DNA of 20,694 nt, taken from the IMG/VR virus record IMGVR_UViG_3300037089_000574, positions 1 to 20,694 of that record. The stretch is one strand, 5' to 3'. The DNA is from a virus. This document shows positions 2,285-18,119 of this stretch, piece by piece. Under the pieces are notes generated by a model that saw only the letters and a program-made list of their open reading frames with translations, searched no databases and was not told where the DNA came from. Numbering within the stretch: position 1 is the first letter of the stretch; each line of letters begins with the position of its first letter. The translations under genes and the position numbers were made by a program.

Positions 2285-5002
2285 ATGAAAAGACATGCAT
2301 CAGAAGAAGCATTTTACCAAAGACTAAAAGAATTGGCAGAAGTAAATAAACCAATCTTAAAGGATAACACCCGTAATTTAGGTACTTTGATAGACTACAA
2401 AAGAGCAGCAGACGGTATAGCATATGGCATCGTTAAAGAAAATCATAACTACTATATTAAGAAAGCTGGTATTAAACAAGACCCTAACATTGCTGATTTT
2501 GCATATATTGGTGGCTTGTCAAACATTAAAGAATTCCAATATTCTAAATTATCTGAAGCTGAAAAGCAAAGAAATATGATTTTTGGTACTATTAATGAAG
2601 GTCTTACAAAAGTAGACAAAAACGGTAGTAAAAAGAAAAGACTTAATGAAGACAAAGCTGGTGCAGAAATTGACAATGCGGAAAGCAAATTGGGTGATTT
2701 AGAAGCTGCTACAAGTGCAGAAGCTGCTCCAGAAATAGGTCCTGAAAGTCCTGAAACAGCAGGTGCTCCTTTGGACGCTCCTGCAGAACCTGTTGCTGAT
2801 GCTGGTGGTGAACCTCCTGCAGATAATGCAGAACCTATTCCTGCTGGTGGAGAAGAAACTGATGTTACTACTGGTGACGAAACTCCTGCACCTGAAGGTG
2901 ACGGAACTGGTAGTGAAGAACTCCCACCTGCTGATGATGCTGCTCCTGCTGGTGATGCAACTGGTGAAGAAGTACCTGTTGGTGACGAAGAAGTTGATAA
3001 ATTGATCGGTAAGTTAGGTGAAAAAGTTAGAAAAACTGACATGGAAGATAATATTGTTGCAGGTAATTTGAAATCAATTATTGCAGCATACAAACCTAAA
3101 CTAAAAAATATGGATATCGAAGACAGAAAAGAAATTGCTGACGGTATTCTTAAAGTTGTGGGTGATGATGAAGTTGAAGATTTGGCTCAAAGTGTAGATC
3201 AGGGTGAGCCAAAAGCAGAACCAGAAGCTGGAATCGAAGAAGATCAGTGCGCAGAATGCGGTGGTTTTGGTAAATATGCTGAATCACGTGGTTATTCAAG
3301 TCCAGAAGCATTCATGGAATGCGGAAGTGAAGAACAAGCAAATGTTGTAAACGGTTATGTTGGTGCAGGTGAAGAAGGTATGAATGATGGTGACGAAAAA
3401 ACAATTAGTTTAATTATAAAATTAGCTCCTGAAGTTCTTGATAAATTGAAATCAGATTATGGTCGTGATGACTATGCTGAAAAAATGCAACCACAGGTTG
3501 ATTCAATGAATGAATCAAGTGAAGAAGATGCAATGACTCAGCTTAAAGAATCATGGGGCGGTGGTTTAGCTGGTTTAGGTAAAGCTGCTCTTGGTGGAAT
3601 TGGCAAAGGTATTGCTGGTGCTGCTAAAGGTGTTGCTGGTGGTGTTAAGAGTGCTGCACAAGGTATTGGTAATGCTGCAAGTGGTGCTTATAACGCAGTT
3701 AAGACTGGCGTTGGAAATGCTGTTGATACTGCTAAACAAGCATATCAGGCAGGTAGTCAGGCACAGGATGTTAGATCAGGTATAAAAGGTAAAAATGCTG
3801 CATTAGGTAAACTTGAAGCAATGGCTGCTGACTTAGGTAAGCAAATCGCTGCTGCAAATGCTGGTGCTGCAAAAGCTGGTCAACCTGCAATTGATGTAAG
3901 AAGTCTTGCACAAATAATGTCAAATCAACTTAGAGGTTCTAAGGGTGCTCTTGACTTAAGTAAATTTAAATCAGAAGGTACAATGCCAGTTGATCAAGTT
4001 CAGGCACAACCAAATATATTAAAGGAAGAAGATGAACCAGAAACTGACGAACCCGAAACAGATAATACAGAAGTAGCTACACCAGAAACTGGTGAAGAAA
4101 CTCCTGCAATTGAAACTGGTGAAGAAACTCCAGAAGTAGGTGCTGATAATGTAGCTCCAGAACCAGAAGCAAAACCAAGTTTTAGTTTTGCTCCAGATGC
4201 TCAAACATTGGGCGGTGGCGTTGTTAAACCTGAAGGTGCTGGCGTTGAAATTAAAATTGAACCAGATAAGACTGTTACGCTTAACATGAATGAAGCTAAA
4301 AAAAGATTAATCAAACAAATAGCTGAAGGCGTTAATGCATATCTTAAAGAAGGTGACGACAAATGGATTCAGAAAGCAGTTAATCCTGAACATAAAGGTG
4401 ATTGCACTCCAATGACAAAACCAAGTTGTACTCCTGCAAAAAAAGCACTTGCAAAACGTTTCAAAAAAGGTATTGAAAACGAAAGTGTACAAATGAGTGA
4501 ATCAGAACAGAAACTCAGAAAGTATATTCGTGCACGTCTTGAAGAACATGCTGGCATAAGAAAACCAAGTTTGAATGAAGGTAAAAAATCTCCTACATTA
4601 GTAAAACTTGACGCAGTTATTGACAACCAGTTTAAATTGTTTGAAGCCGTTGCTTTAAAAAAAAAGGAAAATCTAAATGAAATATTTGGGTTTAGTGTAA
4701 AAGAAAAATTCACTAAATTAGACCCAAATGATCAAAAAGGAGTTTTCGATCTTTTTAATGAAGCGTTCAGATTGATTTTAACTAACCCACAAATGGGAGC
4801 AATTGCAAGAGCAGCACAAAAAGCACCAATAAATGTAAAATATGATCTTCTTAAGCAATATGTTGAAAATAATGGTGGTACTTTAAGAACAAATCCTGAT
4901 GGAACATTGTTATTTGCACCAGAAACACTTAAGAGTGCAGCAACCAAGAGTAGTTTTGGAAGTGGTGGCACGATGGGACACACAGCAATGGGTGGAGTTT
5001 AA
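2285..5002 (+). CDS. Mosaic 905-aa probable virion or internal-core protein
   Basis: I do not recognise the whole protein. An N-terminal domain (about 1-110) has YGIVKENHNYYIKKA and DFAYIGGLSNIKEF. Residues 140-235 are a Pro/Ala/Glu/Asp-rich linker. Residues 235-425 are acidic and hold CAECGGFG at 322. Residues 424-495 are Gly/Ala-rich with repeated GAAKGVAGG-like units that could form an amphipathic or membrane-active helix. A second acidic linker (580-630) has repeated TGEETP. A basic Cys-containing module (693-730, WIQKAVNP...CTPMTKPSCTP) resembles short modules I recall from other phage proteins. Several (I/L)NE sites occur, the cleavage pattern of T4-type prohead proteases. The gene has its own promoter motif and a terminator. 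A capsid-internal or ejected role is inference. Confidence 0.75.
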   Translation: MKRHASEEAFYQRLKELAEVNKPILKDNTRNLGTLIDYKRAADGIAYGIVKENHNYYIKKAGIKQDPNIADFAYIGGLSNIKEFQYSKLSEAEKQRNMIFGTINEGLTKVDKNGSKKKRLNEDKAGAEIDNAESKLGDLEAATSAEAAPEIGPESPETAGAPLDAPAEPVADAGGEPPADNAEPIPAGGEETDVTTGDETPAPEGDGTGSEELPPADDAAPAGDATGEEVPVGDEEVDKLIGKLGEKVRKTDMEDNIVAGNLKSIIAAYKPKLKNMDIEDRKEIADGILKVVGDDEVEDLAQSVDQGEPKAEPEAGIEEDQCAECGGFGKYAESRGYSSPEAFMECGSEEQANVVNGYVGAGEEGMNDGDEKTISLIIKLAPEVLDKLKSDYGRDDYAEKMQPQVDSMNESSEEDAMTQLKESWGGGLAGLGKAALGGIGKGIAGAAKGVAGGVKSAAQGIGNAASGAYNAVKTGVGNAVDTAKQAYQAGSQAQDVRSGIKGKNAALGKLEAMAADLGKQIAAANAGAAKAGQPAIDVRSLAQIMSNQLRGSKGALDLSKFKSEGTMPVDQVQAQPNILKEEDEPETDEPETDNTEVATPETGEETPAIETGEETPEVGADNVAPEPEAKPSFSFAPDAQTLGGGVVKPEGAGVEIKIEPDKTVTLNMNEAKKRLIKQIAEGVNAYLKEGDDKWIQKAVNPEHKGDCTPMTKPSCTPAKKALAKRFKKGIENESVQMSESEQKLRKYIRARLEEHAGIRKPSLNEGKKSPTLVKLDAVIDNQFKLFEAVALKKKENLNEIFGFSVKEKFTKLDPNDQKGVFDLFNEAFRLILTNPQMGAIARAAQKAPINVKYDLLKQYVENNGGTLRTNPDGTLLFAPETLKSAATKSSFGSGGTMGHTAMGGV

Positions 5003-5030
5003 TAAATGACACAAATAAGATTAATATAAA

Positions 5031-5058
5031 GAACCCGAAGAAATTCGGGTTTTTTTTG
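5031..5058 (+). terminator. Rho-independent terminator after the 905-aa gene
   Basis: A perfect 8-bp stem, AACCCGAA (5032-5039) with TTCGGGTT (5044-5051) and loop GAAA, runs into an uninterrupted T tract (5050-5057). It lies 29 bases after the stop codon of the 905-aa gene and ends that transcription unit. Confidence 0.9.
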
Positions 5059-5103
5059 TAACCTTTATAAAATAATTTCCGTATAAGTAACAAAATATTA
5101 ATT

Positions 5104-5526
5104 ATGTTTGATATAGAAGTAGAGATAGTCGAAAACAAATACCGCAGAACATATATAGGCGGGTCAAAGAAAAAAGAAGATGAAATCTTTCTTAAGGTGC
5201 AGGGCACGAAAGAAGATAATTCTGATTGCGACTGGATTGAATACAGAAGACTTTTAAAAACGTACAAAGACGATGTGTTGCTTGTAATGGGTTCTTGGAA
5301 ACAAACTCTTCATTATGAAAGTTATATCATGTTATTCATGGCATTACTTTGGATGAAATACAGTACTTTGGTTTACGTTTCAATTGGTCTGGGAGTTTTG
5401 TTTCAAATTGCATATTTAATTATTAAAAATAAAGAAAATAAAAAATTAAGACAATTCGATATGTGTATAACCATACTACATGAAGAAATAAAAAAAGTTA
5501 CTGGATTAAATCTCGATAAATTTTAA
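5104..5526 (+). CDS. Hypothetical protein with a membrane hairpin, 140 aa
   Basis: I do not recognise this protein. A charged N-terminal part (1-70) is followed by a long hydrophobic stretch (about 72-107), long enough for two transmembrane helices joined by a short turn around MKYS. A Lys-rich segment (108-117) and a cytoplasmic-looking tail follow. The arrangement suits a small inner-membrane protein with both ends on the same side. It has no signal peptide or catalytic motif. It lies between two hairpin terminators, so it is probably transcribed alone; no exact promoter octamer precedes it, only the partial match CTTTATA near 5062. A holin is possible in principle, but the long soluble N-terminus is unusual for one. 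Confidence 0.65.
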   Translation: MFDIEVEIVENKYRRTYIGGSKKKEDEIFLKVQGTKEDNSDCDWIEYRRLLKTYKDDVLLVMGSWKQTLHYESYIMLFMALLWMKYSTLVYVSIGLGVLFQIAYLIIKNKENKKLRQFDMCITILHEEIKKVTGLNLDKF

Positions 5527-5550
5527 GCTACATAAAGTGGCTTTTTTTTT
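5525..5550 (+). terminator. Rho-independent terminator overlapping the stop codon of the 140-aa gene
   Basis: AAGCTAC (5525-5531) pairs with GTGGCTT (5537-5543), including one G-T pair, around loop ATAAA, and runs into a T tract ending at 5550. The stem begins inside the TAA stop of the upstream gene. Confidence 0.8.
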
Positions 5551-5557
5551 CAGGGGT

Positions 5558-5566
5558 GTATTTATA
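5558..5566 (+). promoter_or_regulatory. GTATTTATA late-promoter-like motif for the 161-aa gene
   Basis: An exact GTATTTATA directly after the terminator ending at 5550, with 14 bases between the motif and the ATG at 5581. If transcription starts several bases downstream of the motif, the leader is only a few nucleotides long. Confidence 0.65.
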
Positions 5567-5580
5567 AAAAACATCTGATC

Positions 5581-6066
5581 ATGGAATATGAAGATAGCAA
5601 GTTGAGGTTGATTTATGTACTTAAGATTGGGTACAATTCGAAAGATGAAGGCTTATATGAATTTATATTTTCCATTGATGAAACAAACATTGACATGGAG
5701 AGTTGGTGTTGGGATTTAGAGCCAGCTTGTAATAATGCAATGCCACCAACAGAAGATTATATAAATGCTGTTTTTAATTTAAAGACTAAATCATTTGATT
5801 TATTCTGTTTGCATGAAGATACAACAAGACCATACATGCATGGTTATCACACAATACATGCGCTTGCGTATGAAGTTGAAAAGAAAGACGCTGATGGTAA
5901 TCCTTCAAGTGATTACGACAATATGTTCACTGAAGAAAATGCTGACGTACCTTTATTGGTGTTTCATTATGGCATGACATTAGCTAAAGTGAAAGATTTA
6001 CTTAATTCAAGAAAAATCATTTTAAAAAATAATGAATTTATAGAAACGTCTTCTATAAAGTTTTAA
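5581..6066 (+). CDS. Hypothetical protein, 161 aa
   Basis: I do not recognise this protein. It has no membrane segment or signal peptide. The pattern of short hydrophobic stretches (RLIYVLKIGY, YEFIFSIDE, LLVFHYGM) suggests a mixed alpha/beta soluble fold. The most distinctive part is ESWCWDLEPACNNAMPP at about residues 40-56, with two cysteines and two tryptophans. A promoter motif lies 14 bases before the start and a terminator separates it from the gene upstream, so it appears to be its own transcription unit. It lies two positions before the large terminase, where a small terminase might be expected, but it lacks the helical coiled-coil character of T4 gp16, so I do not call it TerS. Confidence 0.65.
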   Translation: MEYEDSKLRLIYVLKIGYNSKDEGLYEFIFSIDETNIDMESWCWDLEPACNNAMPPTEDYINAVFNLKTKSFDLFCLHEDTTRPYMHGYHTIHALAYEVEKKDADGNPSSDYDNMFTEENADVPLLVFHYGMTLAKVKDLLNSRKIILKNNEFIETSSIKF

Positions 6067-6067
6067 C

Positions 6068-6076
6068 GTATTTATA
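6068..6076 (+). promoter_or_regulatory. GTATTTATA motif in front of the tandem structured RNA
   Basis: An exact GTATTTATA, beginning two bases after the stop of the 161-aa gene. The first conserved RNA unit starts at 6083, six bases after the motif. That is about where transcription would begin if this element acts as it does before the protein genes. Confidence 0.6.
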
Positions 6077-6082
6077 ATTGCC

Positions 6083-6155
6083 CATCTTACCAGATTCGGA
6101 AGAAGGGGTTTCGGGGCACGACAGTACAAGATTATTGCCTTGCCCTGCGGTTTTT
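6083..6155 (+). ncRNA. Structured RNA candidate, copy 1 of 2
   Basis: This is the first of two tandem units starting 86 bases apart that share CATCTTACC, GGAAGAAGG, the loop C(A/C)AGAT and TGCG. A small hairpin pairs CTTACC (6086-6091) with GGAAG (6098-6102), leaving one bulged A. The main hairpin stacks TCG (6111-6113) on CGG (6148-6150), GGGCA (6114-6118) on TGCCC (6141-6145), and CAGTA (6122-6126) on TATTG (6133-6137), closing loop CAAGAT. A five-T run follows, as at a factor-independent end. The stems differ from copy 2 at positions that preserve pairing. No known RNA family was recognised, and no ORF of useful size fits here. Confidence 0.65.
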
Positions 6156-6168
6156 AAATAAAAGAGTT

Positions 6169-6240
6169 CATCTTACCATGTGGAAGAAGGAAATCGAAAC
6201 CCGATAGCACCAGATTGCTATTGGGTTTTGCGATTTTATG
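6169..6240 (+). ncRNA. Structured RNA candidate, copy 2 of 2
   Basis: This is the second unit of the tandem pair. The main hairpin is very stable: AATCG (6192-6196) with CGATT (6231-6235), AAACCC (6197-6202) with GGGTTT (6223-6228), and GATAGCA (6203-6209) with TGCTATT (6216-6222), closing loop CCAGAT. Only a TG bulge interrupts the 3' strand. The 5' hairpin CTTACC...GGAAG is retained. No promoter octamer lies between the copies, so both are probably on one transcript. Copy 2 could instead act as a terminator or leader element for terL, since a short T run follows the stem. Confidence 0.65.
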
Positions 6241-6248
6241 CTGGGAGA

Positions 6249-6257
6249 GTATTTATT
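6249..6257 (+). promoter_or_regulatory. GTATTTATT promoter-like motif for terL
   Basis: GTATTTATT, one base off the window's consensus, ends 13 bases before the terminase ATG. This is the same spacing as at other units and lets the terminase be transcribed independently of the structured RNA. Confidence 0.5.
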
Positions 6258-6270
6258 ATAAAAATTTATA

Positions 6271-8391
6271 ATGAGTGTTAAAGATATCAATCCCGATAAT
6301 ATTATTCAAAATGATAATGACGATCTGTTTCCCGAACACGTACCGTTAATCCCTCTTGACTTAAATCGAGAAAAACAAAAAGAAGAAATCAGAAAATTTG
6401 CTGCTGACCTTAGAAAGAAAGGCGGTACTGCTGAACCAATTATTGTTACAAAATCTGGCGTTGTTAAGAAAGCATCTGAATTAACTAAAGTAGAACAAGA
6501 AGAGGAAGTTGTTCGTTGTGGTATGAGTCCATTTTATTTTATTGAAACATATCTTACGGTCTTCGACTTAACACAAGGTACTGCTGGTTTGATAGTGCCC
6601 TTTAAGTTGTTTGATTTTCAGAAAGAATTGATACATACCTATATGGAGAATCGTTTTGTTGTGGCTAACAAATATCGTCAGGCAGGTGTTTCAACAACCA
6701 CTTGTGCTTATATTGCATGGTATGTAATGTTCAATTCAAACAGGCAAGTTGCTATTGTTGCTGACAAACTTGAAACAGCACGTGATGAAATCATGAGTGA
6801 TGTTGTTTTATTCATAGAAGGTTGTCCTAAATGGTTAAGACCAAAAACTGGTAGAGAGAGTATAAAAAATCTTAAAGACACTCAGAAAGATAAAATTTAT
6901 GACAATAATTCAAGAATAGGTGCTTTCTCTTCTAAAGGTCTTCGTGGTATGACACCAACATTGATTTTTTGGGATGAAACTGCATGGACAGAAAAAGGTG
7001 ATAAGTTCTGGACTGCTGCAAGACCTACTCTGGGTACTGGTGGTGGTGCAATCATGGTTTCAACTCCTTCAGGTCTTGATGCAGTATTCTACAAACATTT
7101 TATGGGTGCACGAGAATTAAATGAGGAAGGAAAAGGTAAAAATGGTTTTACTGCAGTTGAAATTTGGTGGTATAACGACCCAAGATATAATAAAGGTCTT
7201 GTGTGGTTAAAGAATAAAGGCAAAGAAAATGAAATTAAAATAGTTGATGAAGGTTGGGACAATAAAAAGAGAATCCAAATGATGGATGATGGCTGGGAAG
7301 CAAGTTCTCCTTGGTTTCAAGAACAAATTGATGGTTCAAATGGAGATATGCGTAAAATTGCACAGGAACTTTTATGTTCTTTCCTTGGTTCTGGTGACAA
7401 CTTCATTGCAGAAGAATATTTGAAACGTATTGAAGACGAAGAAGTGTTACCACCAATTCGTCAGGAATATACTGATAAAAATGTATGGATTTGGGAAGAC
7501 CCAATTGTGGGTGAAGATTACATCATGGCACTGGATGCCTCACCCGGACACGGAGAAGATAATTCTACTATGAATATGCTTAAAACAAAGGAAGTTATAG
7601 AAGAAAAAATTATTACAAAAAACGGTAAAACCAAAAAGTATAAAATAAAAAGACACAGGGTTGAACAGGTTGCTGAATATTATGGTAAAGTTACTCCACA
7701 AATGCTTGCTGAAATTGCACTTCAATATGGTAAAGCATATAATAATGCTTATGCTGTAGTTGATATCACTGGTGGTTATGGTGTACAAACAGTTGAAAAA
7801 TTACTTGAATATGGATATGAAAATGTTCATCATGCAGAAGTAACACATAAACCAAGTAGAGACAGATTACAAGGCTATATTAAAAAAGGTCAGAAAACTA
7901 TGGCTGATGGAACAGTTATAAACGTAGACTTGATACCCGGATTCTTCATCGGCACTAACCGTGCTTCAGTAGTTCTTGAATTACAAAGATCAATTCACTT
8001 AAAAGACGTTATAATTCACTCAATTAGATTATTAAACGAGTTAAAAACTTTTGTTACCGTCCCCGGTAATCGTGTTGCAGATCATAAACGTTCATTTCAT
8101 GATGATTCAATTATGGGACTATCTCTTGGTTTGTATGTACTTAATTTTGATATGGCTCGTTACAAACAAAGTAAAGGTATTACAGAAAAAATGCTTAATG
8201 CTATTATCACTGTCAATGAAATGAATGAGATTGGAAAGAGATTAAATAGTAGAACTGGTAATACACAAACCATTAGGGATACCAATGTTAAGAATAAGCC
8301 AATGATTTCACCCAATAGCACATCACCATTAAATCCCTATGGAGCAAATGCGTGGTTATTTAATGGTTTGAAAGAGAAAAAGAAAAATTAA
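6271..8391 (+). CDS. terL: Large terminase subunit (DNA-packaging ATPase and nuclease)
   Basis: This is the motor that pumps DNA into the prohead through the portal and cuts concatemers. The ATPase part has a Walker A-like YRQAGVST at 135-142, Walker B LIFWDETA at 231-238 with the catalytic Glu after the Asp, and a coupling-type motif MVSTPSG at 262-268. The C-terminal RNase H-like nuclease has acidic residues at D422 (MALDASPG), D498 (VVDITGGYG) and D611/D612 (FHDDS). The length of 706 aa is somewhat above T4 gp17 (610 aa); extra sequence includes a Lys-rich insertion around 440-463 and a Ser/Pro/Asn tail. The portal gene follows immediately, as expected in a packaging module. No small terminase gene was recognised nearby. 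Confidence 0.96.
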   Translation: MSVKDINPDNIIQNDNDDLFPEHVPLIPLDLNREKQKEEIRKFAADLRKKGGTAEPIIVTKSGVVKKASELTKVEQEEEVVRCGMSPFYFIETYLTVFDLTQGTAGLIVPFKLFDFQKELIHTYMENRFVVANKYRQAGVSTTTCAYIAWYVMFNSNRQVAIVADKLETARDEIMSDVVLFIEGCPKWLRPKTGRESIKNLKDTQKDKIYDNNSRIGAFSSKGLRGMTPTLIFWDETAWTEKGDKFWTAARPTLGTGGGAIMVSTPSGLDAVFYKHFMGARELNEEGKGKNGFTAVEIWWYNDPRYNKGLVWLKNKGKENEIKIVDEGWDNKKRIQMMDDGWEASSPWFQEQIDGSNGDMRKIAQELLCSFLGSGDNFIAEEYLKRIEDEEVLPPIRQEYTDKNVWIWEDPIVGEDYIMALDASPGHGEDNSTMNMLKTKEVIEEKIITKNGKTKKYKIKRHRVEQVAEYYGKVTPQMLAEIALQYGKAYNNAYAVVDITGGYGVQTVEKLLEYGYENVHHAEVTHKPSRDRLQGYIKKGQKTMADGTVINVDLIPGFFIGTNRASVVLELQRSIHLKDVIIHSIRLLNELKTFVTVPGNRVADHKRSFHDDSIMGLSLGLYVLNFDMARYKQSKGITEKMLNAIITVNEMNEIGKRLNSRTGNTQTIRDTNVKNKPMISPNSTSPLNPYGANAWLFNGLKEKKKN

Positions 8392-11318: not shown

Positions 11319-14300
11319 TTATGCTTTATTTGGCGAATTAAAAAAATCTCTTTTCATCATATTCAAATCAATTTCATTTTTAGAATTTTGGTTTCCTTTA
11401 ACTTTACCTTGTGGACTAAATTGCCATACAGTCCATCCCTCATTTCCCTTTTTTGGGTCAGAATTAGGTTTTGCCCATGCAGTTGCAATTGAAGGGGGAG
11501 TTACTTCTGGAGTATATGGATATTGAGCATGCCATAAAGTAATATTATTAAAGTTTCCAGTTGTGTGGTCATCAAGCCAAGGCTTACCACTATAAAGAAT
11601 CATATTATATTTCGCAGCTTTTACTACTGAAATAAAAGTATTAATCCACAAATTATTATTTGGTTTAATTAGTGACCATTTTTTATTTCTTTCATCATCA
11701 TCTTCAATATCCAATATAAGAGGAAAGTCGGGTTTATTTGGTAAGTTATTTACGGTGCTTACAAAAAAGTTTGCCTGTTTGGTTGCATCTGCAATAATAT
11801 CAGCATTAACACTTGCGCCTCTATATTGTTCTGCATAGTGATAGTAACCAATTTTAAGTCCTGCTGCTTTTGCACCAATAGAATTTGCTACTACCTGACT
11901 ATCTTTAAAAGTACCCTGACTTGTTTTCATTAATGCAAATTCAATTTTTGGATTGTTATTACTTGGGTCAGTATTCATTTTGCTGCTATTAACGGCAAGA
12001 TTCCAGTTAAAGTTTCCTTGGGCATATGACACATCAACACCATAAACAGAGTTAAATGCATCTAATCTTGCCTGTGATATGGATTGTGCCAATGCTTTTG
12101 TAGCTTCGCCAGCACCTTGTGTATATGGATTTGTTTGATCAGAATCTCCACCGTCATATCCTAAGATTGCTGCTGCATTTAATACTCTTGGTACGGGATA
12201 TCTAAGTATTTTTGTACCAGAAAAATTTGTTGTCATTTTATTGGGTTCAATATTATGTTCAACAGTTAGAATAATATATGCTCCACTAAATAAAGGCACA
12301 TTTTCTAATTGAAAATATTGTGTTGGTTGTATCATGGCATTACCCAAACCAGTAATGGTGGCTCTATATGCTCTATTTTCATAAAGACTATATAAGTTTT
12401 GTCCTTTAGGTACTGGTGATTGTATTTTATTATCACCAGCTAATCTTGCCAATATTTGAATACTTTCGTTTGTTTCTGGGTATTCTTTACTATCAATCTT
12501 AATGTCATTAAACATTGACTGATTTTGTTCGCCAAATCTAACCCTGAATGCCCTTACTTGCCTCCAAGGAAATCCCATATTTTTTGTTTCTTGTTTACCG
12601 TCTTCTGAATTAATATCAATTGTTGGCGGTTTTGTTTTAAAATCAATTGTAGCCTGACTTCCACCTAAGTCAGTAATACCGTCATCAGTAAAACCGTTTG
12701 CAACACCAGTTGGATAACTTGATGAACCACCTATGTACATACAAACAAAAGCTGGTTGTGGTGTTGAATGTACATCTGTGCTGATCTTAAATGATTCAAT
12801 CCAGTTTTGCTGAGTATATGACATAAAGTTTTGTAACGGAAAGAATTCAAATCCATTCAATGATAATAATTGTGATATCACACTAAATATTGAAATGTTC
12901 GGGTCTTCAAGCATTTGTGAAAGAATTTCACAATTCAATATAGTATTACCAATTGGATTCATTGCTCTGTCAACAAATGCAAATGAATCGATTAGTCTTT
13001 TATTATTTTCATTTGATGGATAACCCTTAGTGTTAGCTCCATCAGGATTTGTAAGCCATTTGTCGTTAATGTTTTTAAATGAATAATATGTTTGTGTTAT
13101 AATGTCCTCATCACCTTTTAGTTTTTGTTGTGCCACTTCTTCTTTTTTAAGATCATCTTGTTTTGTGTTTATATTTGCCAATAGTTCAGCAAAAAATATC
13201 TTAAAGAAAGAATCATTAATTGTTTTTATTTTTGTATTTCCAGTATTAGCATTTAGTGTTTGAAGTGATGTATAACCGACCTTTGTTGCGCCTGTACTAA
13301 ATGTTGATTCGCTATAATTTACAATATTTGTTCTGGTGATCATAGGTGAAAGAATTTCATAATACCTGAAGCCAGAACCATTTTCTGTTGATTTTGGGTC
13401 TAAATAATATTTATATGAAAGAAATTTTACGATCTTTTGATTAATTAATCTGTCCTTTACGTCAGAATATAATCCCTGAACACCACTTAATATTGAAGTG
13501 TATTGTTGACTCATGAATGTATCAAACTGAGCTTTATATATTGCTTTATCGTTTGCTGATAAATAATGATTTATGTCATGAATATCAGCAAAGATAAACA
13601 GTCCTAAACTGTCTAAAACCTTTCCTTCGCCAGTGGTGAAAAAATCAGTTATTGTTTGTGTTGTAAATGTTGTATCGCTACCTTCAATTGCCGTTAATAA
13701 TGCGCCAATATATGCGGGTAAGTATTTTGGTGTTTCTAAAACCCCTGCAATGGTGAATAGCAATGGATTTAATCTATTTGGATATTGATTAAACGGACTT
13801 AGAGTATAACCATAATTAGATAAAAACATCAAGGCACTTAATTTCTGGTTGTATAACGGATTAGTACCACTAATTATTGTGTTATAAATTTGATCATCAT
13901 GTTCTGATAATTGTGATATCCAAGGATTAATGATATTATCAAAATTTCTTAAACTTGCAGCATCACTTTTAACATATCCACCAATTTGATAAAAATATGT
14001 GTTTCCGCTTGCCAATAAAGGTGCAATATATTTGGTACTCGGTTGAATTTTCATGTCTTCTGTTGATTGACCATATGGATTTAAACTCGAATATCCTGTA
14101 CCAAACGCATTTGAATCCAAGAATCTTGTATTAATATTAACACCTTGATTATCTGTAATTACTTTGTCTGTGTCAATCTTTCCGTCTTTACTGTATTGAT
14201 CAGCAACATATAGTAAATTTTCATTTGTAAAATTATAGAAACTTTGATGTTCTCTACCTAAAAATATGTTTCCAAATAGACCTCTTAAAACTCCGTTTTG

Positions 14301-16700
14301 AAATTTATCGACAGGTTTTGTTGATGATTTATCGTCACTAAATGTTTGTAATTCAATCTTTTCGTCTTTTACGATGCTGCCTTGATAGTTTGAATTATTT
14401 TTATTGGTATATGCGACAGTTCCTTGAAGATCATCACCAGCTAATGGAAATGATTCTCTTTCGATAGGAGTGAATGCATAGTGATCTTTCATTGCTGGAG
14501 TATTCAAAAAGGTATAGAAACTATCTACGCTATTTGTAAATTTATTAGCATTGTCTTTTATGTTGCTTGCATATTTTGTTTCAGTCATTGAGTTTGCCAA
14601 GTTAGCTGCTTCAGATTTTGCAAAAAATTCAACATATGCTTTACTGATTTTTTTGTCAGTATCATAAAAACTTGAAGGATATGAACTTTGTGATAAAATA
14701 TAAAATCTATCAAGCATTATTTTAATTACTTGTTGCAGTCTATTATCATTACTCACATTAATTGGCATAGCAGTGCCACCGTCAGTGGTGTCCACACCGT
14801 AATACGGACCTGTATATGCGGATTTGGTATCGTCACTGCCAAGTTTTGAATCAAGCGGTGAAACTGGTATCCATTTGTATGTACCATCATCATTCATTTG
14901 ATTTTTTGCATTCATGATCTCACTAAATTCTTTCTGTTTATTGAACGTATCAATAAAATCACTTATTAATGTAAGTTCAGGAAATGGTTTTGGTAATAGT
15001 TTACTTAAATTAGTTGGTGCAACTCTTACTTCTCTCTGACCACCAGTAACGTTTTGTTTGTCAATTACCAATGGAAATGAATAAATATGATTTGAAGTTG
15101 CTTGTGAATTTATATCTACATATTGATTTGGTGCAGTGCCAAGTATTGTTTTATTAAAATCTGGGTTGTTATGATGTCTTTCTGCTTCGGCTGATACGTC
15201 TCTAACTTTTTGAAAGAATGTATCAACGTCATTAAGAAGTATTTCAAAAATATTGTAAATTGTTGGCATCATACCAAGATTTTTCATTATCATATTGTTG
15301 ATAATGCCATTGATAGTGTTACTAAGAGTAGCTTTTGATTTAGTTAAAGAATCTTTTTCTTTATATAATTTCACATAAAGATTAGTAATGTCAATACCAG
15401 TATATATGGTAGATGGCTTATTATTACTGAATGTTGTTACATCATATTGATTACTGAATTTCACGCTGTCTATGCCAATATTGCTGTTTGCAACGCCAGT
15501 TTCTTTATAACTATTCAATAATTCATTTTTATAACCATCCATGTATAATTTAGCAATTGTAGATTTATCTTCAACTCCTGTGTATGGTATTTGATCTATT
15601 TTACCTGTTGCATATACCACGTATAATCTTTTGCTTACATCTAATGATTGTGCAGGTATTGCTAATGACTTAATATAAGCATTATAATCATTAAATGTCG
15701 TGATGGTAATTACGTTTTTTTCTGCAATAGGTACTTGCTGATTACTACTATTATAAACCAAATCATTCAATGAAAATTCATGTTGTTTATTATCTGACGG
15801 TGCAACGTCTACCATTAATAAATATGAATTACCGTTTTCTGCCAATTTACTATTATAGTCGCCAATTACTGCTTGTGTTGACGCATTTTTTGCAAGTTGA
15901 TTTAATGTAGTGTCGTATTTCTGTGTTTGTGGAAGCGATTTTAATTCTTTCGAAATTTCATCATATAAATTTTTTAACTTTAATATTAAAGCATATGTAT
16001 TTTCTGGACGTGTATTTGGATTTGCATTTAATGATATACCAGTATTTGTTGGAGATATCAACGGAAAGTTAACAACATATCTGAACAAAATGTCTGTTAG
16101 TGGAGCATAAGTGACTGCAACGAATTGAGCATCAATAATAAAATTACCATTTTCTGCTTTAAATTCAGAAGTATATTTAACAAGATGTAATTTATATTTC
16201 AATGATTTACCATAATATCCTTTAATTGTAAGATAAAAGATTGGTGGTGGAAAATCAAACAATATTCTATAAGGAGAATTTGTGCGATTGAAGAATGCCA
16301 GACCTCTTACGTCAATAAATTGAATACTCACCTGTGGTATAAATGATGAATTAATAATAACCTTAATGTTGCTCATACCAAATCCTTCATACTGGATGTT
16401 GTTACCGTTACTGCCGTCATAATATCTCGTAGTAAAGCTATTGTAATTTGGGCTGGTTTTATTTTGATCTGTGCCAAGAAAGTTAACTTCAGTAAAGTCT
16501 TCCATTCCAGTTTTCAGTATGTTGCCACCGTTGCCTTGTTCGCTTGATGTTTCCAATACTGTTCTGCCTTTTCTTACTGCTCTTAATTCTGCATATATGA
16601 ACATATCCTGATATTGTGGGATGCTATTAACCATACTTGGATTAGTATTCACATCGTTAGGGTCAAGTAATATGATATTTCCGTTATTTACAATTGCCAT
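11319..16700 (-). CDS. Giant baseplate-hub-like protein with C-terminal GH25 lysozyme, 1793 aa
   Basis: The C-terminal 240 residues are a glycoside hydrolase family 25 muramidase: GVDVSYAQG at 1554-1562, KTSQG near 1593, GYYHYAE near 1618, LDIEDDD at 1663-1669 (D1664 and E1666 match the catalytic DxE), LYSGKPW near 1703, LWHAQYP, and WQFSPQGKVKG before EIDLN. GH25 enzymes cleave the MurNAc-GlcNAc bond of peptidoglycan. Residues about 105-230 (GFGMSNIKVIINS, FNRTNSPYRILFDFPPP, IKGYYGKSLKYKLHL) and about 1420-1500 (YFQLENVPLFSGAYIILTVEH) look like tail-hub/late-control-D-type baseplate domains. The middle is long and Asn/Ser/Tyr-rich without clear motifs. It is the only minus-strand gene here, with a promoter motif 14 bases before its start. 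The lysozyme is near certain; the hub role is probable. Confidence 0.85.
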   Translation of the reverse strand: MAIVNNGNIILLDPNDVNTNPSMVNSIPQYQDMFIYAELRAVRKGRTVLETSSEQGNGGNILKTGMEDFTEVNFLGTDQNKTSPNYNSFTTRYYDGSNGNNIQYEGFGMSNIKVIINSSFIPQVSIQFIDVRGLAFFNRTNSPYRILFDFPPPIFYLTIKGYYGKSLKYKLHLVKYTSEFKAENGNFIIDAQFVAVTYAPLTDILFRYVVNFPLISPTNTGISLNANPNTRPENTYALILKLKNLYDEISKELKSLPQTQKYDTTLNQLAKNASTQAVIGDYNSKLAENGNSYLLMVDVAPSDNKQHEFSLNDLVYNSSNQQVPIAEKNVITITTFNDYNAYIKSLAIPAQSLDVSKRLYVVYATGKIDQIPYTGVEDKSTIAKLYMDGYKNELLNSYKETGVANSNIGIDSVKFSNQYDVTTFSNNKPSTIYTGIDITNLYVKLYKEKDSLTKSKATLSNTINGIINNMIMKNLGMMPTIYNIFEILLNDVDTFFQKVRDVSAEAERHHNNPDFNKTILGTAPNQYVDINSQATSNHIYSFPLVIDKQNVTGGQREVRVAPTNLSKLLPKPFPELTLISDFIDTFNKQKEFSEIMNAKNQMNDDGTYKWIPVSPLDSKLGSDDTKSAYTGPYYGVDTTDGGTAMPINVSNDNRLQQVIKIMLDRFYILSQSSYPSSFYDTDKKISKAYVEFFAKSEAANLANSMTETKYASNIKDNANKFTNSVDSFYTFLNTPAMKDHYAFTPIERESFPLAGDDLQGTVAYTNKNNSNYQGSIVKDEKIELQTFSDDKSSTKPVDKFQNGVLRGLFGNIFLGREHQSFYNFTNENLLYVADQYSKDGKIDTDKVITDNQGVNINTRFLDSNAFGTGYSSLNPYGQSTEDMKIQPSTKYIAPLLASGNTYFYQIGGYVKSDAASLRNFDNIINPWISQLSEHDDQIYNTIISGTNPLYNQKLSALMFLSNYGYTLSPFNQYPNRLNPLLFTIAGVLETPKYLPAYIGALLTAIEGSDTTFTTQTITDFFTTGEGKVLDSLGLFIFADIHDINHYLSANDKAIYKAQFDTFMSQQYTSILSGVQGLYSDVKDRLINQKIVKFLSYKYYLDPKSTENGSGFRYYEILSPMITRTNIVNYSESTFSTGATKVGYTSLQTLNANTGNTKIKTINDSFFKIFFAELLANINTKQDDLKKEEVAQQKLKGDEDIITQTYYSFKNINDKWLTNPDGANTKGYPSNENNKRLIDSFAFVDRAMNPIGNTILNCEILSQMLEDPNISIFSVISQLLSLNGFEFFPLQNFMSYTQQNWIESFKISTDVHSTPQPAFVCMYIGGSSSYPTGVANGFTDDGITDLGGSQATIDFKTKPPTIDINSEDGKQETKNMGFPWRQVRAFRVRFGEQNQSMFNDIKIDSKEYPETNESIQILARLAGDNKIQSPVPKGQNLYSLYENRAYRATITGLGNAMIQPTQYFQLENVPLFSGAYIILTVEHNIEPNKMTTNFSGTKILRYPVPRVLNAAAILGYDGGDSDQTNPYTQGAGEATKALAQSISQARLDAFNSVYGVDVSYAQGNFNWNLAVNSSKMNTDPSNNNPKIEFALMKTSQGTFKDSQVVANSIGAKAAGLKIGYYHYAEQYRGASVNADIIADATKQANFFVSTVNNLPNKPDFPLILDIEDDDERNKKWSLIKPNNNLWINTFISVVKAAKYNMILYSGKPWLDDHTTGNFNNITLWHAQYPYTPEVTPPSIATAWAKPNSDPKKGNEGWTVWQFSPQGKVKGNQNSKNEIDLNMMKRDFFNSPNKA

Positions 16701-17411: not shown

Positions 17412-18119
17412 ATGAATAGGATATTGTTACAAGAAAGTAAAATATTACAGAGAGGCGAAACGGGATTAACATATATATATTCATTATCTGACCCAATTAC
17501 CAATGAAATTAGATATGTGGGAAAATCAGATAATCCAAATTTGAGATTAATTGAACATATAAAAAAATGTAAATATAGTACTACACATAAAAATAACTGG
17601 ATTAAGTCATTATTAAATAGAAACTTAAAACCTATTGTTGAAGTTCTTGATGTTATATCTATAAAAGATTGTGGGTTTTGGGAAAATTATTGGATTAATA
17701 CAGTAAAAACATGGGGTTTCGATTTAACCAATATAGCAAATGGAGGTATTGGTGGTAATTTAGGTCCGATTGTTAATGCAAAAATTTCAGAAAAATTAAA
17801 AAACAGAATGTTTTCTGCAGAAACAATAGAAAATATGAGAATTTCTGCAACTAATAGAAGGCATAGTGAAAAAACAATATCTAAGATGGCAATATCTAAG
17901 ATGGGTGATAATAATCCAATGTTTGGTAAAGCACGAATAGAATCATCAAAAAAATATAGGAGTGTAGTACAATTAGATTTAAATCGAAATTTAATTAAAC
18001 CTTGGCAGGGAGTATCAATCGCATCTAAAGAATTAAAAATTAATCGTTGTACTATTTCAGATGTTTGTAATGGAAGAAAAAAGACAGCAGGAGGATATGT
18101 TTGGGAATATTCTCAATAA
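17412..18119 (+). CDS. GIY-YIG homing endonuclease with NUMOD-type DNA-binding modules
   Basis: The GIY-YIG nuclease lies at about residues 20-110: YIY at 21-23, RYVGKS at 34-39, R45 and H49 in RLIEHI, the metal-binding Glu E91 in FWENYW, and LTNIANGG. A NUMOD3-like segment follows (MGDNNPMFGK, 164-173), then a NUMOD1-like helix-turn-helix segment (VVQLDLNRNLIKPW, then SIASKELKINRCTISDVCNG) ending YVWEY. These are free-standing or intron-borne mobile nucleases that cut an allele lacking them. The N-terminus, before the nuclease, carries SKILQRGETG, which nearly matches SKILQKGEVG at the start of the next gene. The gene therefore seems to have inserted at the 5' end of the prohead protease gene and taken over its promoter and start. 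Confidence 0.93.
   Translation: MNRILLQESKILQRGETGLTYIYSLSDPITNEIRYVGKSDNPNLRLIEHIKKCKYSTTHKNNWIKSLLNRNLKPIVEVLDVISIKDCGFWENYWINTVKTWGFDLTNIANGGIGGNLGPIVNAKISEKLKNRMFSAETIENMRISATNRRHSEKTISKMAISKMGDNNPMFGKARIESSKKYRSVVQLDLNRNLIKPWQGVSIASKELKINRCTISDVCNGRKKTAGGYVWEYSQ
17436..17468 (+). repeat. Duplicated N-terminal coding segment, upstream copy
   Basis: Codons 9-19 of the homing endonuclease match codons 2-12 of the prohead protease (18138-18170) at 24 of 33 bases by hand count. Four of the differing codons (AGT/AGC, CAG/CAA, GGC/GGT, GAA/GAG) are synonymous. Residues SKILQxGExG are shared. Confidence 0.7.

Follow-up and report, generated by a model that had tools for sequence, protein, structure and literature searches.

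The tandem RNA units and their surroundings

The window, the whole 20,694-nt stretch of viral DNA analysed here (IMG/VR record IMGVR_UViG_3300037089_000574), carries two RNA units of about 73 nt, each made up of two hairpins, at positions 6081-6153 and 6167-6239. They lie between a conserved gene for a 161-aa protein (5581-6066, plus strand) and terL, the gene for the large terminase (6271-8391, plus strand; PHROG phrog_2, E 5e-37). The 161-aa gene, for which searches of PHROG, Pfam and PADLOC gave no match, precedes the RNA in nearly all terL-linked relatives. The element is best explained as a phage gene for a small noncoding RNA, present as two tandem copies of a single RNA family.

Unit 1 (6081-6153, plus strand) belongs to subtype A and consists of hairpin H1 at 6081-6108 (CCC/GGG, TCTT-A-CC/GG-AAGA) and hairpin H2 at 6112-6150, with the loop CAAGAT at 6127-6132 and a U tract at 6151-6155. 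Unit 2 (6167-6239, plus strand), of subtype B, has H1 at 6167-6192 (TTC/GAA, TCTT-A-CC/GG-AAGA) and H2 at 6193-6234, with the loop CCAGAT at 6210-6215, a UG bulge and a U-rich tail. In general form H1 reads YYC-A-UCNN-A-CC / loop / GG-NNGA-AG-GRR; the stem of H2 is longer, is capped by a C-NN-GA-W loop, has a UG bulge close to its base and leads into the U-rich tail. The combination CATCTTACC-N-GGAAGAAGG occurs exactly twice in the window, at 6083 and 6169, where dinucleotide shuffles predict 0.00 occurrences. Re-checking of the sequence bore out the tandem pair and the stems that the first-pass annotation had described, and added to each copy an outermost H1 helix absent from that description (CCC/GGG in copy 1 and TTC/GAA in copy 2), which sets the starts of the units at 6081 and 6167. 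Subtype A, represented by copy 1, is marked by UUUCG between the hairpins, by the 3'-end sequence UUGCGG and usually by an A-C mismatch; subtype B, represented by copy 2, has AUCG between the hairpins and a stem that is usually fully paired. Relatives carry a single unit of either subtype, or one of each in either order.

The phage promoter motif TATTTATA (6069-6076, plus strand) ends 4 nt before the first stem, and the RNA transcript probably starts at about 6080. The earlier assignment of a promoter motif to this place proved sound, as 10 of the 11 occurrences of TATTTATA in the window, counted on either strand, are intergenic. Nine of these ten stand 21-68 nt before a start codon on the same strand, and the tenth is the motif before copy 1, 202 nt before terL. 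In relatives, most first units are preceded by TATTTAT at an equal distance, and we take TATTTATA to resemble the late promoters of T4-type phages. A second promoter-like motif, TATTTATT (6250-6257, plus strand), ends 13 nt before the start of terL and is likewise conserved in relatives, so that terL need not be read through the RNA; with separate motifs before the RNA and before terL, the RNA looks like a transcription unit of its own. Elsewhere in the window, a GIY-YIG/NUMOD homing endonuclease gene (17412-18119) has its own TATTTATA 24 nt upstream, and the minus strand at 11319-16700 encodes a structural-looking protein of 1793 aa whose C-terminal domain is endolysin-like (residues about 1540-1785; phrog_291).

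Folded as single sequences, copy 2 is strongly structured (z -6.2) and copy 1 only weakly (z -1.0), so the structure of copy 1 rests on its homologues, further units of which were obtained from terL homologues in IMG/VR. In an ungapped alignment of 24 type-B units, which is free of model-fitting inflation, 99.5% of the pair cells hold standard pairs, against 85.4% in shuffles, and there are 79 double-change cells against 20. A joint alignment of 71 host and phage units, fitted to the model and therefore somewhat inflated in its pairing, has 95.2% of pair cells paired (74.9% in shuffles), changes on both sides in 21 of the 25 pairs, and 403 double-change cells where shuffles give 120; when this alignment is slid as a control, pairing drops to 44-59%. 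The earlier proposal that selection acts on RNA structure, which had been made from the two copies and referred to homologues for covariation, is thus backed by these 71 units. In the same set, G-U or U-G cells number 88 and A-C or C-A cells 22, of which 20 fall at one conserved position; this excess identifies the folding molecule as the plus-strand RNA transcript. A covariance model built from the 24 type-B units, with copy 1 left out, gives copy 1 a score of 52 bits (E 6e-11) and detects no further copy in the window.

As the first-pass annotation had stated, no recognised family fits: Rfam searches of the region of the pair, at the gathering threshold and at E up to 10, returned chance matches only, and no tRNA or tmRNA was found. 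H1 resembles the MS2 operator in its bulged A two pairs below a tetraloop, but subtype A does not retain the sequence of the loop.

Occurrence among phages

Pattern scans of 2.9 million viral contigs, run without reference to terL, gave 67 phage stretches, 59 of which have a unit at the junction of the 161-aa gene and terL, a figure that reflects our own reading of the loci and contig counts that include near-duplicates. The other eight lie elsewhere, for example before groEL in two contigs (L158 and L222), where groEL follows directly 3' of the unit and, in L158, a groES-like gene is also present. In another (L107) the unit is near an unrelated gene that resembles the terminase of a different phage, and a record of 325 kb has two copies away from terL (L191 and L192), one of them before a baseplate-like gene. 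Phage records of 250-365 kb carry one or two copies each. Conversely, ten terL loci, at least eight of them distinct, are without a unit at the junction, and at some of these junctions a plain hairpin takes its place. Inheritance within one phage lineage may be all that lies behind the preference for the terL junction, and terL is probably a neighbour of the RNA pair and not its functional partner.

The junction is also occupied by other sequences. In six loci (L011, L018, L036, L037, L049 and L050) a reverse-strand sequence that looks like a homing endonuclease gene seems to have been inserted next to the RNA site or within it, between the 161-aa gene and terL, and in two of these loci (L011 and L036) a 3' fragment of a unit survives; the endonuclease gene does not include the RNA. 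One unit-carrying phage contig (L221) contains a reverse transcriptase gene on the minus strand (4677-5645; phrog_1423).

A homologous RNA in bacterial defence loci

A search with the H1 DNA pattern through the genomes of 84,980 bacterial and archaeal species gave 18 matches, all in Bacteroidota; in 17 of them the first stem is preceded, at 6-7 nt, by the Bacteroidota promoter TAnnTTTG. Fifteen of the 18 host RNAs adjoin the gene pair of PDC-M04, a candidate system in PADLOC composed of PDC-M04A, a DUF3800 protein, and PDC-M04B, a protein of 168 aa, with the genes on the strand opposite to the RNA. The neighbours identified comprise PDC-M04A (E 1e-82), PDC-M04B (E 1e-69), DUF3800 and ResIII/MTase, and the examined examples of PDC-M04 sit in type III or type I restriction loci. 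The host loci score 35-80 bits with a model for which phage units alone were used, which makes the scores independent of the host sequences. Subtypes A and B both occur in hosts and in phages; H1 with its bulged A, the AG bulge, the C-NN-GA loop of H2 and the UG bulge are kept in hosts and phages alike; and the phage units preceding groEL are 87-88% identical to a Flavobacterium PDC-M04 RNA. The phage and host RNAs are very probably homologous, the phage units being members of the same family as the RNA of PDC-M04, a relationship that is invisible from the window alone. Bacteroidota are likely to be the hosts of the phage.

Two other identities were tried against this wider set. A plain pair of intrinsic terminators, the mundane element that the first-pass annotation had considered, does not describe the units, in which conservation from host to phage takes in H1, the bulges and the H2 loop and so goes beyond a GC-rich stem and a U tract. 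A dispersed mobile repeat was rejected in view of the low copy number in the long phage records and of the single RNA copy found in 15 of the 16 host genomes searched; the remaining genome has weak extra matches at one place.

The relationship was also approached from the protein. Among 395 Bacteroidota genomes, 12 PDC-M04B genes were found, six of which, including all four with E below 1e-60, have the RNA convergent at their 3' end. In hosts, close-family PDC-M04B is linked to the RNA almost without exception. The other six are distant members with other hairpin RNAs, or no clear match, in that position; different antisense hairpin RNAs were seen 3' of distant PDC-M04B genes in L247, L248, L250, L251, L252 and L253, and each PDC-M04B subfamily may have its own cognate RNA. 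A covariance-model search of the same 395 genomes gave 14 RNA loci, of which five had already been found beside PDC-M04B, four have PDC-M04B remnants (L260, L261, L264 and L265), three are in an Abi_2-type context (by a Pfam test on L259) and two are in other settings.

The other host neighbours, Abi_2 and RnlA, are abortive-infection proteins or RNase toxins. Of the 18 pattern matches, one adjoins an Abi_2 gene (L205/L235), and in Puteibacter the RNA is divergent to rnlA, which encodes the RNase LS toxin (L212, 1260-2509), in a locus with no PDC-M04 genes. The abiF RNA (RF03085) was not matched, at E up to 10 in the window region and up to 1 in the Abi_2-linked loci, and the RNA unit itself matches none of the Rfam covariance models for the DUF3800-I to DUF3800-XI RNAs. 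A DUF3800-VIII RNA (RF03075) does lie about 190 nt from the RNA unit in one PDC-M04 locus (L242, 2255-2319, minus strand), and a sub-threshold match to the same family stands beside one Abi_2-linked copy (L235, 1427-1492); the two RNA families may be paired in PDC-M04-linked and Abi_2-linked loci. Searches of the literature found no paper on PDC-M04, or on DUF3800 together with defence and noncoding RNA.

An RNase H fold has been predicted for DUF3800 (PMC10910872). For PDC-M04B, an AlphaFold2 model from 14 sequences (pLDDT 74.1) superseded a first model from ten (pLDDT 48.6). Foldseek found nothing significant for it, with no match below E 0.07, and a sequence search against the PDB gave nothing useful. 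The longest VIA-align matches (77-92 residues) are to a CDI toxin, a Salmonella toxin, the colicin D tRNase, RelE and HigB, with Z of 4.9-5.6, which falls within the range of chance arrangements; their agreement on one fold class, that of the RelE/BECR RNases, is no more than suggestive for PDC-M04B.

The phages, for their part, carry the RNA without the cassette. Only two PDC-M04B genes occur in the 2.9 million viral contigs, both with the RNA; a search for PDC-M04A in 30 phage records of the group gave no credible hit and one chance-level match; and linked PDC-M04A and PDC-M04B genes were not seen in the window. Dozens of phage contigs, by contrast, have the RNA. The phage RNAs are orphans.

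Proposed function and comparison with known systems

The best explanation of its function, which we consider reasonably probable, is that the tandem RNA of the phage is an antitoxin mimic that neutralises a candidate defence of the PDC-M04 type. The proposal derives from a host cassette with a cognate RNA on the one hand and, on the other, from phages that have only the RNA, in duplicate and with its structure conserved. The host RNA would restrain the toxic protein of the cassette in the manner of type III antitoxin RNAs and of the AbiF RNA, the latter having two motifs and acting in trans to bind and silence its toxin (PMC12373285). The phage would transcribe its own copies from its own promoter, and these, acting in trans, would bind the toxic protein and stop it from becoming active when the host antitoxin is disturbed by infection; a tandem of A and B would raise the dose and cover two specificities. 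There is a precedent in phage PhiTE, whose pseudo-ToxI repeats silence the toxin on behalf of the phage (PMC3475682). Two observations sit less comfortably with the antidote proposal: the preference for the terL junction is left unexplained by it except through vertical inheritance, and the motif before the RNA is of a late-promoter-like kind, whereas an antidote might be expected earlier. The broader statement, that this is a widespread phage RNA family, often a tandem of two subtypes, which mimics the RNA of DUF3800/PDC-M04 cassettes, disarms them and is kept in environmental T4-type and jumbo phages as an antidote of two specificities, is favoured only slightly.

The location of the pair invites a role in packaging, whether as an RNA like the phi29 pRNA, as a part of the terminase or packaging machinery, or as a DNA packaging site, and the RNA is indeed directly upstream of terL in most relatives. 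Yet at least eight distinct relatives with the same terL have no RNA at the junction, and the RNA is found away from terL in other phages, beside groEL and baseplate-like genes, and in bacterial chromosomes, at defence loci; a DNA pac site was rejected both on this distribution and on the G-U excess, the G-U pairs pointing to RNA and not to a DNA site. A packaging role is accordingly largely refuted and very improbable. Of the first-pass annotation, then, the structured pair, its own promoter motif and the lack of an Rfam family stand, while its speculation about a packaging RNA does not. The same terL relatives without the RNA, and the same unrelated neighbours, disfavour a terL leader. More generally, the pair could act in cis as an insulator or leader that ends the upstream late transcript, regulates terL or does both, for instance with the bulged-A hairpin serving as the recognition site of a phage RNA-binding protein. 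Its usual place between the same two genes, the terminator-like appearance of H2 followed by a U tract, and the simple hairpin at the junction in some relatives without the RNA are all in keeping with such a role, which we nevertheless regard as unlikely: a separate promoter motif stands between the RNA and terL, the same RNA occurs beside unrelated genes in other phages, it lies on the strand opposite to the genes in host defence loci, and H1 and the H2 loop hold more conserved unpaired bases than a terminator requires.

A different possibility takes the homology of the host and phage RNAs as its starting point and supposes that phage and host have the RNA in common as a substrate, sensor ligand or trigger, which the host cassette detects or cleaves, the phage copies serving some other function. 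That the host proteins are probable nucleases would suit this idea; but phages keep and duplicate the RNA with a strict structure, whereas a trigger should be lost, and the host cassette itself carries the RNA with its own promoter. It seems a little less probable still than a role in cis.

Catalogues list DUF3800-associated RNAs to which no function has been assigned, and PDC-M04 is so far a candidate system. Against this background, a phage that keeps only the RNA provides a strong hint that the RNA probably inhibits the cassette. If the antidote proposal is true, phages of Bacteroidota would commonly counter host defence in nature by mimicking an antitoxin RNA of the host, and this class of DUF3800-associated RNAs would be antitoxins. 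Both the function of the RNA and the role of PDC-M04 are directly testable with small RNAs and two small genes.

The packaging RNA of phi29 is, like the present RNA, a phage noncoding RNA near a packaging gene, but the present RNA is found outside phages too, does not always accompany the packaging ATPase (at least eight terL relatives are without it) and differs in size and fold. The DUF3800-I to DUF3800-XI RNAs (RF02968, RF02969 and RF03075 among them), reportedly described in a 2017 paper from the neighbourhoods of DUF3800 genes, are similarly noncoding RNAs beside such genes, whereas the present RNA also occurs in phages without DUF3800. The AbiF RNA, or RCd22 (RF03085; PMC12373285), is a small RNA with two conserved hairpin motifs and its own promoter and terminator that acts in trans on an Abi_2 toxin, and some host copies of the present RNA also adjoin Abi_2, although its main partner is PDC-M04/DUF3800. 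The pseudo-ToxI of PhiTE, set against ToxIN, offers the same arrangement of a tandem phage noncoding RNA that resembles the RNA of a host defence cassette and is not accompanied by the toxin gene. ToxI, however, is a 36-nt pseudoknot repeat, and the present RNA is a 73-nt two-hairpin RNA of another sequence family, associated with another cassette and found in many environmental phages.
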